Source of the DNA: Alphaproteobacteria bacterium
GTDB lineage: Bacteria; Pseudomonadota; Alphaproteobacteria; Caulobacterales; Parvularculaceae
NCBI GenBank assembly: GCA_016125425.1
Contig: WGLT01000003.1
Coordinates: 62,001-126,000, forward strand
DNA length: 64,000 nt
Reading direction: 5' to 3'
This document shows positions 7,467 to 9,732 of this stretch, one piece after another (the first letter of the stretch is position 1; the number at the start of each line of letters is the position of its first letter). The notes beneath the pieces are model-generated. The model saw only the letters and a list, made by a program, of their open reading frames with translations, did no database searches and was not told the DNA's origin. A program made the position numbers and the translations under genes.

Positions 7467-8432
7467 TCACGGGCGCGCCATAACGGGCGCCGCAAGAAGC
7501 GCGAAAAGGTCTGCGAGAACGGAGTCAGCAGTCGGATCGCGCCCCGCGCCTTTGCCGTCGGTGATGAAGCGCTCGCCGCTCGCGGCGGTGACGATGAGGC
7601 GGTTTTCTTCCAGATGCGGCTCGGAAAGCGGGTCGTCCGGCGGCGTTTTTACAAGGCGAACGGCGGCCTCGACGCCGTCTTTCGTGCGGCGCGCCGACGC
7701 GATCTGCTTGTAGGGCGCGCCGGCCTGCGCCGCGGCCGCGATCGCGCCCTGCGGAACACTGGACAGCCTGTCGCGCGGGATCGCGTCGGGGTCTATCGCG
7801 ATATTGAAGGCGCGCCGCGCGAGGAGCGCGAGTTTTTCGGCTGCGTCGACGCCGTCGATGTCGGCCGAAGGATCGGCTTCGGCGAAGCCGGCCGCCTGCG
7901 CGAGTTTTATCGCCGCCGGCAGATCGAGTCCGCTCCCCAATTTTTCGAGAACGAAATTCGTGGTGCCGTTGAGCACCGCGTCGAGGCGCTCGATCTGGAT
8001 CAGGCGCGCGCGCGTTTCGACGTCTTCAAGCATCGGCGCGCCGCCGCCGACCGCCGCGGAAAAGCGAAGGCGCGCTTTCGTCTTCGCGGCGATGTCGTGG
8101 AGCGCGTCGAAGCGGCGGGAAATGAGCGTTTTGTTGGAGCTGACGACATCGGCCCCGCCGGCGAGCGCTGATTTGACAAACCGCTCGGCGGGGGAGACAC
8201 CGCCAATCGCTTCGACAAGGATGTCGTAGTCGGGCAAGGCCTCAAAATCGGTCGTCACCAGCGGGGCGGGCGCGCCGCGCGCGATCGCCGCTTCGCGATT
8301 GCGGCACAGGATGGCGACAACTTCGAACTGCGCCGGACGGGCCGCGAGCCGTTCATAGACGCCCTCGCCGACAACGCCGAAGCCGGCGAGGGCGACACGC
8401 TTTCGGTCCGAAAATCTGCGATACGCTGTCAT
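7467..8432 (-). CDS. hom: Homoserine dehydrogenase, short form without ACT domain
   Basis: The 321-residue protein has an NAD(P)-binding domain with AGFGVVGEGVYERL, the SSNKTLIS segment, the catalytic core NGTTNFVLEKL, and the signature GFAEADPSADIDGVDAAEKLALL. It reduces aspartate semialdehyde to homoserine. It stops after the catalytic domain, so the C-terminal ACT regulatory domain of the usual proteobacterial enzyme of about 430 residues is missing. The start ATG 8432 overlaps the metX stop by 4 bp (ATGA), and the longer in-frame start lies inside metX. It forms an operon with metX behind a SAM-I riboswitch, implying a methionine-dedicated homoserine supply; a second, feedback-regulated Hom may exist elsewhere. 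Confidence 0.9.
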   Translation of the reverse strand: MTAYRRFSDRKRVALAGFGVVGEGVYERLAARPAQFEVVAILCRNREAAIARGAPAPLVTTDFEALPDYDILVEAIGGVSPAERFVKSALAGGADVVSSNKTLISRRFDALHDIAAKTKARLRFSAAVGGGAPMLEDVETRARLIQIERLDAVLNGTTNFVLEKLGSGLDLPAAIKLAQAAGFAEADPSADIDGVDAAEKLALLARRAFNIAIDPDAIPRDRLSSVPQGAIAAAAQAGAPYKQIASARRTKDGVEAAVRLVKTPPDDPLSEPHLEENRLIVTAASGERFITDGKGAGRDPTADSVLADLFALLAAPVMARP

Positions 8433-9472
8433 ATTTGGGGAGCCTGCAAGAAGCGTTTCAATTCGTCGGCGAAGAGCGGCGTGTCGCACAAAAAGGCGTC
8501 GTGACCGACAAGGCTTTCGATTTCGACATACCGGGCGGCGCCGGCGACGCCGCGCGCCGTCTCCTCCGTGTCCAGCGGCGGGACGAGGCGATCGGTTTTC
8601 GATGCGATGAACAGGCAGTCGGCCGTGATCGTCGAAGGATCGACATTGGCGCGATCGATCGAGTCCGAAAGCGTCAGATAACGCGACGCCGGCATGGCCT
8701 GCGCATAGGCGCGTCCGCGCGCTTCAAGATATTCGCAGATGTCGAACGGATCGCCCGGCGCGCCGCCGCGCGGCGCGCTTTCGAAACGGGCGCGGAATTC
8801 GTCGGCCGTTCTGTAGGTCGTCATCGCAAGCTCGCGCGCGAGGGCGACGCCCTGTTCCGGCCGGCCGCATTCACGCGCGAGGAGAATGATGCGGCGTTGA
8901 ACGCCTCGCAGCGCCGTCGCCATGGGGTCGGGGCGCGAGGACGCCGAGACGACGCAGAGCCGGCTCAAACGATCCGGAAACAGCGAGGCGAATGCGAGCG
9001 CCACATAGCCGCCGTAAGACGCGCCGACAAAAGCCCGAACGGTCCCAATTCCGACGCGGTCAAGCGCAATGGCGAGCGCGCGCGCCTGATCGGCCGGCGT
9101 TATCGCGGGTTCTTTGGGTTCTTCTCCCGGCAGAAAATCGAATCCGAGGAGTTGAACTTCATTCGTGTCGATCGCGCCATTCGGCCTGGCGAGCGCGCGC
9201 CACCAGCCTTGTTCGGCGCCGGCGTCGGCGACATTGCGTCCGGCCGAGACGCCGCCGGCCGCAATAATGACAGGCAGGCCGTTGCGGCCGTAAAGGCGGA
9301 TACGAAAGCGCCGGTCCTGAAGGCGTCCGCCGTTTTCAAGAACAAAGTCCGCGCCGAGATCGATTTCGATATCGCGCCAGCCGGACGTTGTGAGAACGCG
9401 CGACGGCGCTCTTTGACCAGGACGCGGCAGACAGTCGCCAGCCTCCGGTTCGGCGATCTTGAGGGCGGTCAT
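8429..9472 (-). CDS. metX: Homoserine O-acyltransferase, MetX family
   Basis: This 347-residue alpha/beta-hydrolase has the nucleophile elbow VGASYGGYVAL (Ser), the Asp region IASKTDRLVPP and the His in VGHDAFL. It transfers an acyl group from acyl-CoA to homoserine, the first committed step of methionine synthesis. The elbow reads GASYGG rather than the GGSMGG of classical MetX acetyltransferases and resembles the branch found in Xanthomonas-type genomes, in which members may use succinyl-CoA; acetyl versus succinyl specificity is not decidable here. It is the first gene of metX-hom, with a SAM-I riboswitch in its leader at 9572-9696. Confidence 0.87.
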   Translation of the reverse strand: MTALKIAEPEAGDCLPRPGQRAPSRVLTTSGWRDIEIDLGADFVLENGGRLQDRRFRIRLYGRNGLPVIIAAGGVSAGRNVADAGAEQGWWRALARPNGAIDTNEVQLLGFDFLPGEEPKEPAITPADQARALAIALDRVGIGTVRAFVGASYGGYVALAFASLFPDRLSRLCVVSASSRPDPMATALRGVQRRIILLARECGRPEQGVALARELAMTTYRTADEFRARFESAPRGGAPGDPFDICEYLEARGRAYAQAMPASRYLTLSDSIDRANVDPSTITADCLFIASKTDRLVPPLDTEETARGVAGAARYVEIESLVGHDAFLCDTPLFADELKRFLQAPQI

Positions 9473-9571
9473 TTCGGCGCGTCTCCATGCACGGGTCTTT
9501 CACGCGGCCTTGCGGCCGGCTCATCTCGACATTCATGCTGAAGACCCGAGCGGGCGACGGCGTCGCCCTCT

Positions 9572-9696
9572 CTCATCTCCCGAAACGTCCTTTTGGGCGC
9601 TTCGCAGGAATTGGCACCTTTCCGAAGAGCCGGGTCGCGGCGCTCCGATGGTTGCCCCGGCGTCAAAGGGCCTGTCCCTCAGCCGGTCTTGATGAG
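9572..9696 (-). ncRNA. SAM-I (S-box) riboswitch upstream of metX-hom
   Basis: Read on the minus strand, the leader has the S-box core in order. P1 pairs CTCATC (9696-9691) with GATGAG (9577-9572). Then come GAGGGACAGGCCC (the internal loop and P2 strand), a GGCAACC segment, and GGTGCCAATTCCTGC. These are hallmark SAM-I elements with correct spacing. It binds S-adenosylmethionine and should turn the operon off when SAM is high. No poly-U terminator follows at once; a GGGCGAC/GTCGCCC stem at 9552-9568 and a GCGGCC/GGCCGC stem closer to metX may form the expression platform, perhaps at translation or Rho level. Confidence 0.93.
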
Positions 9697-9702
9697 CCCG
9701 GC

Positions 9703-9732
9703 CAGCTAGCGGCCGAAACGGGGAAAAGTCAA
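9703..9732 (-). promoter_or_regulatory. Candidate promoter for the metX-hom leader
   Basis: On the minus strand TTGACT (9732-9727) and a weak TAGCTG (9708-9703) are 18 bp apart. Transcription would start close to 9697, which is where P1 of the riboswitch begins, so the position fits well even though the -10 is poor. Confidence 0.5.

Follow-up and report, generated by a model that had tools for sequence, protein, structure and literature searches.

The leader upstream of metX-hom raises two questions: which class of S-adenosylmethionine (SAM) sensor it carries, and by what kind of expression platform ligand binding could reach the downstream genes. We addressed both on the minus strand of the window, by which we mean the whole 64-kb stretch of Parvularculaceae DNA analyzed here. 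A first-pass annotation had proposed a SAM-I riboswitch before metX-hom on the basis of short motifs between 9732 and 9572, and all of these motifs were found where it had placed them and in the right order on the minus strand, i.e., P1 (CTCATC, 9696-9691, with GATGAG, 9577-9572) and, successively, the core motifs GAGGGACAGGCCC, GGCAACC and GGTGCCAATTCCTGC. The Rfam search that it had recommended confirmed the assignment. The SAM model RF00162 (SAM-I, S-box) matched 9698-9570 over its complete length (model positions 1-108) with 78.4 bits and an E-value of 9.3e-17, compared with a gathering score of 44.4 bits, and this was the sole above-threshold Rfam match across the 64 kb. Folded by itself without constraints, the aptamer formed the four-helix SAM-I junction P1-P4, with a z-score of −2.77 and none of 200 shuffles equally stable. 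SAM-II (RF00521) gave no match in the window at its gathering score, nor at E ≤ 0.001 in the genome that the window comes from. With a full-length, above-threshold aptamer, a conserved core and a methionine gene downstream, this segment is a genuine and ordinary member of the SAM-I class, as shown by the covariance-model score. The features of the locus are listed in Table 1.

Table 1. Features of the metX-hom leader and the genes that follow it, in window coordinates.
Feature	Coordinates	Strand	Basis or remark
-35 element TTGACT	9727-9732	-	79/79 leaders have TTGAC 34-38 nt ahead of P1
-10 region GCTAGCTG	9703-9710	-	position only; predicted start about 9696-9698
SAM-I aptamer P1-P4	9570-9698	-	RF00162, 78.4 bits; fold
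P1 5′ strand GGCUCAUC	9691-9698	-	partner is the P1 3′ strand when ligand is bound; 9518-9525 proposed as partner without ligand
P1 3′ strand GAUGAG	9572-9577	-	Rfam match; fold
P5 hairpin after the aptamer, core GGGCGAC/GUCGCCC (9552-9568)	9548-9572	-	fold; equivalent hairpins in relatives
Anti-SD/anti-P1 segment GGGUCUUC	9540-9547	-	GGUCU invariant in 27/27; alternative pairings
Duplicate of the P1 3′ strand, GAUGAGCC, fully complementary to GGCUCAUC	9518-9525	-	fold, sequence
SD arm (GGAG, 9486-9483)	9481-9493	-	OFF fold pairs it with 9534-9545
metX, homoserine O-succinyltransferase type, 347 aa	8429-9472	-	NF006449, 309.4 bits (cut-off 296)
hom, homoserine dehydrogenase	7467-8489	-	NF004976 and PF00742; likely start ATG 8432

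The first-pass annotation had also placed a promoter at the 5′ edge of P1, pairing TTGACT (9732-9727) with TAGCTG (9708-9703) across an 18-nt spacer. Comparison with 78 leaders of named metX relatives revealed TTGAC 34-38 nt upstream of P1 in all 79 leaders, window included, which are related by descent and so do not count as 79 independent events; among mononucleotide shuffles, 5.8% contained TTGAC at any position of the 60 nt. The −10-like hexamer is a poor match to TATAAT, and a generic sigma-70 scan found no promoter. The GCTA in the −10 region fits a Caulobacter-type −10. The conservation and fixed spacing of TTGAC support a putative conserved promoter element at the 5′ edge of the aptamer, in agreement with the annotation, and transcription would accordingly begin with the first bases of P1.

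The aptamer ends 97 nt before metX, and the likely ATG of hom overlaps the stop codon of metX (ATGA), as read from the sequence. The genome carries a second SAM-I aptamer (L002, 1501-1743; 67.3 bits), which is located upstream of metB and separate from metX-hom; the product encoded after it passes the cystathionine gamma-synthase cut-off (538.7 versus 504.55). Among the 28 named loci counted as Parvularculaceae, metB directly follows metX in 27, the exception being Amphiplicatus (L091), which has metX-hom as in the window and whose metB-like gene stands apart with its own SAM-I (L171, 139-374), again as in the window genome. In 23 of the remaining 27 loci, hom follows metX at a distance of 1.2-2.1 kb; in the other four, it was not found within the examined stretch. 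The two metB aptamers, from the own genome and Amphiplicatus, carry CAUCGAG and CCAACUCC at positions where the metX aptamer of the window has CAUCAAG and CCAAUUCC; given the differences in these segments, a recent duplication is not evident.

The annotation had left the expression platform open, noting GC stems that were not followed by a poly-U terminator, and the scan of the leader likewise detected no terminator-like site. In the minimum free energy (MFE) structure of the full window leader, the SD arm pairs with 9534-9545, a region overlapping the anti-SD segment. GGUCU is invariant in all 27 aligned Parvularculaceae platforms, window included, while GGTCT is present in the platforms of 45 of the 79 leaders and GGTC in those of 59. 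The metB leader of the own genome forms an 11-bp SD stem; no SD stem appeared in the MFE structure of the full-length Amphiplicatus metB leader. The window's own SD is modest (GGAG, 10 nt from the AUG), which counts against a switch model. By comparison, the platform looks like SD sequestration with an alternative fold that would displace P1, rather than like a terminator, which offers a candidate answer to the question that the annotation had left open. Control acting mainly on transcription, through Rho-dependent termination or a non-canonical terminator formed by the GC stems after P1, is improbable in our estimate: a stable hairpin does stand directly after P1, and a weak transcriptional effect has been reported for the Xanthomonas relative (PMC7270179), but the leader contains no terminator-like site, and what recurs among the leaders is the GGUCU segment complementary to the SD region before the AUG. 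We also considered a leader peptide encoded upstream from a conserved GUGAAU and rejected it, as in the sequences read the frame is not maintained and GCG often stands in place of the GUG.

SD sequestration is our preferred reading, in which the SAM-I riboswitch probably lowers the translation of metX, and that of hom via the ATGA overlap, when SAM is high; we infer both the response to SAM and the translational level of control. Most likely, the ribosome-binding site of metX would be hidden when methionine is plentiful. Transcription would begin at the edge of P1. Once SAM is bound, P1 would be kept closed, which would leave the anti-SD GGUCUUC free to pair with the SD arm that precedes the metX AUG (OFF). 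If SAM is absent while the platform emerges, the anti-SD would pair with the P1 3′ strand and extend hairpin P5, the released P1 5′ strand GGCUCAUC would be recaptured by the downstream duplicate GAUGAGCC, and the partner of the SD arm would then already be occupied (ON).

Folding of truncated transcripts provided evidence for this exchange. In the window, the predicted probability of P1 fell from 0.99 for the aptamer alone to 0.00 at platform nt 55-80, and came back to 0.67-0.84 from platform nt 95, once the SD arm was present. In a window transcript stopping before the SD arm, two alternative duplexes form, GGAGAU on the 3′ side of P1 with GUCUUC and GGCUCAUC with the duplicate GAUGAGCC at 9525-9518, the fold having a z-score of −3.63. 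The same calculations were made for 33 leaders less than 80% identical in their platforms, a set with shared ancestry in which the tests are not independent. P1 probability was 0.89-0.99 for the aptamers alone and below 0.05 in 32 of the 33 leaders when the last 20 nt of the platform were removed, a loss seen in 19.9% of 1,980 dinucleotide shuffles. Taken leader by leader, 28 of the 33 were matched by at most 5% of their own 60 shuffles; the other five, which count against the model, were the window (7%), L126 (23%), L131 (13%), L089 (12%) and L067 (7%). The duplex between the aptamer 5′ strand and the platform reached p < 0.05 in 13 of the 33 leaders (window, p = 0.008), and the 20 leaders that missed this level weigh against the model. 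In Asticcacaulis, the leaders use the aptamer 5′ strand instead, pairing CUGGUC..CGAUGA with UCAUCGAGACCAG. Recapture of the P1 5′ strand was also seen in the truncated folds of two leaders from outside Alphaproteobacteria. In those of the two metB leaders, from the window genome and from Amphiplicatus, GCUCAUCGAG is recaptured by a downstream segment containing CUCGAUG; the unremarkable energies of these folds and their partly non-canonical aptamer count against the model. No association was found between CAUCGAG in the aptamer and CGAUG in the platform (p = 1), which also counts against it.

Consensus folding with RNAalifold was performed on two MAFFT alignments of platforms, which did not contain the P1 5′ strand. 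The GAU of the P1 3′ strand paired with the anti-SD in both alignments, through pairs that are invariant or nearly so, and covariation was thin, with pair-keeping changes on both sides at only two pairs per alignment. The SD stem was not recovered from the Parvularculaceae platforms, whose SD arms were misaligned, and we therefore relied on per-sequence folding with shuffles.

The full-length leader of the window behaves differently from its truncated transcripts, the only ones in which the alternative fold was seen. Without SAM, the full-length leader is predicted to be OFF, with a probability of 0.81 for pairing of the anti-SD with the SD zone and an unpaired probability of 0.24 for the SD. 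Against the model, the SD was slightly more open rather than less with P1 held (0.30), and reached 0.33 with P1 forbidden. As the equilibrium of the full-length leader is OFF with or without SAM, switching would need co-transcriptional kinetic trapping. Over the 33 leaders, the mean unpaired probability of the SD was 0.30 when free, 0.23 with P1 held and 0.32 without P1. In Asticcacaulis, the SD was more open in the free leader (0.50-0.65) than with P1 held (0.10-0.37) in seven of eight leaders, the exception being L131 (0.45 versus 0.44). The OFF equilibrium would also be expected of a decayed or constitutively OFF leader that has no working switch; we regard this as very improbable, because different genera share the aptamer, the platform motif and the promoter spacing, and because, over the 33 leaders, truncated transcripts lose P1 far more often than shuffles do. 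Comparison and folding energies support the alternative folds as predicted structures, and the co-transcriptional order would be as described above.

The SAM-I examples characterized so far, as described in PMC7270179, have an intrinsic terminator; the window leader differs from them in having none and in its host, a member of Caulobacterales. The closest known system is the translational SAM-I_Xcc of the Xanthomonas campestris metA-metB-hom operon (Tang et al., 2020, PMC7270179), which has in common with the window the SAM-I class, a homoserine O-succinyltransferase gene in first position, hom within the unit, the absence of an intrinsic terminator and SD sequestration, which is predicted in our case. 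The two differ in their platform motifs, since the window has the GGUCU(U) anti-SD and the GAUGAG duplicate, whereas the Xanthomonas-like leader L161 has the recapture segment CUCGAUGG and no GGUCU, and also in the position of metB, which is inside the operon in Xanthomonas but outside the metX operon, with its own SAM-I, in the window genome. In X. campestris, uncharged initiator tRNA is reported to be sensed besides SAM, and by analogy the platform of the window might do the same. Gene family and operon type are shared, the anti-SD sequesters the SD in both, and the OFF equilibrium of the window even without SAM is the very situation that prompted the search for an extra factor in Xanthomonas (PMC7270179). 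The anti-SD sequence of Caulobacterales, however, is not that of L161, and we consider such tRNA sensing unlikely.

The first-pass annotation had regarded an S-box as less expected in alphaproteobacteria. This expectation holds for the class, where SAM-I was found in eight of 385 sampled genomes (seven over the cut-off), two of the eight being Caulobacterales, but not for the order Caulobacterales, in which 113 of 398 sampled genomes contain it (111 over the cut-off). Within Parvularculaceae, it occurs in 31 of 62 genomes and is limited to two of nine genera; 31 of the 34 matches lie just before metX, two are the metB copies (G000, G001) and one is at a contig end. In other families of the order, metX was located downstream of SAM-I in all five loci read. 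Passages in Barrick and Breaker (PMC2258182) place SAM-I in some alphaproteobacteria, describe the class as almost devoid of it and report no species with both SAM-I and SAM-II. A 2013 survey scanned RF00162 in 255 genomes including four Caulobacterales, and it may already list SAM-I there (PMC3766115). Our literature search returned no paper combining riboswitch, Brevundimonas and S-adenosylmethionine.

The association was also examined starting from metX. Homologs of the window metX were found in two of 289 genomes of the class sample at 1e-40, one being the window genome itself and the second likewise from Caulobacterales, and in 13 of 398 of the phylum sample at 1e-30, comprising four Caulobacterales (own included) and nine from other classes, with SAM-I upstream of metX in all nine of the latter loci. 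The named metX relatives are Parvularculaceae (Amphiplicatus, Marinicaulis), Brevundimonas, Asticcacaulis and Robiginitomaculum-like bacteria, plus one record titled Sphingomonadaceae. From a total of 359 relatives, the best 80 named loci were inspected for the SAM-I core by motif, and it was present upstream in 78; Rfam confirmed SAM-I in 18 of the 20 loci scanned among these 80. The two loci missed by both approaches, L072 and L080, have short upstream flanks (191 and 235 nt).

Several SAM-I aptamers were observed in other settings. One Caulobacteraceae genome has an additional copy (L172, G222:C4; aptamer near 97-208) that is not followed by metX, and the next ORF downstream is TonB-dependent receptor-like by eye. 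The loci L146, L147 and L148, from other alphaproteobacterial families, contain compact SAM-I aptamers of 83 nt. L146 is without metX, its next long ORF being OsmC-like by eye and not a methionine gene, and L149, likewise from outside Caulobacterales, has neither metX nor an ORF of at least 180 aa within 700 nt.

In other genera of Parvularculaceae, related metX genes are preceded by SAM-II (SAM_alpha, RF00521), which senses the same ligand and is structurally unrelated to the SAM-I of the window. It was detected in 14 of the 62 genomes (six over the cut-off), and comparison of coordinates placed it just upstream of a metX homolog in 11 of the 14. One of the family's 31 SAM-I genomes, the metagenome-assembled genome G045, also has SAM-II over the cut-off, located there before an ORF that is aspartokinase-like by eye; in 80 scanned SAM-I genomes of other families (of 82), SAM-II gave no match over the cut-off and one weak match.

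A MetX tree was built from 43 selected rows, leaving out L157 (internal stop), L040 (SAM-II-linked), L160, L162, the majority of the Brevundimonas loci and some of those from Marinicaulis. The 11 SAM-II-linked rows, of which five have matches over the cut-off, five below it and one (L168) a very weak match (21.5 bits, E 0.46), grouped in a single clade (100/99) that contained none of the 29 SAM-I-linked rows. L164 was flagged as a long branch. In AU tests, neither monophyly of the SAM-I-linked rows relative to SAM-II plus outgroup (p = 0.126) nor a Parvularculaceae MetX clade of 13 SAM-I-linked or cut rows and 11 SAM-II-linked rows (p = 0.224) was rejected. With SAM-I monophyly not rejected and no support for a particular order of its deepest forks, this tree is compatible with a SAM-I/SAM-II change in either direction. 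An in-place exchange of the two classes within Parvularculaceae is possible, given that the family clade was not rejected. One locus of the mostly SAM-I genus g6, L042 (G029), has a metX of the other clade linked to a SAM-II match below the cut-off, a pattern suggestive of either a swap of the entire unit or incorrect binning.

Taken together, these observations may describe a conserved translational SAM-I platform with a two-sided strand exchange, in which the anti-SD would capture the P1 3′ strand and the duplicate the P1 5′ strand, with SAM-I and SAM-II exchanged once before related metX genes in Parvularculaceae, as a single change on the MetX tree, and a logic possibly common to the whole metX SAM-I family. 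As a whole, we put forward this combined picture tentatively, at somewhat less than even chances. SAM-I in some alphaproteobacteria and the translational SAM-I_Xcc are already known, and the platform and its evolutionary setting are of moderate interest. In Caulobacterales, SAM-I is mostly seen on a metX-metB-hom type of unit that is common to other proteobacteria. With related metX genes under either of two unrelated SAM sensors, a single family would offer the chance to test directly whether one class of riboswitch has taken the place of another.
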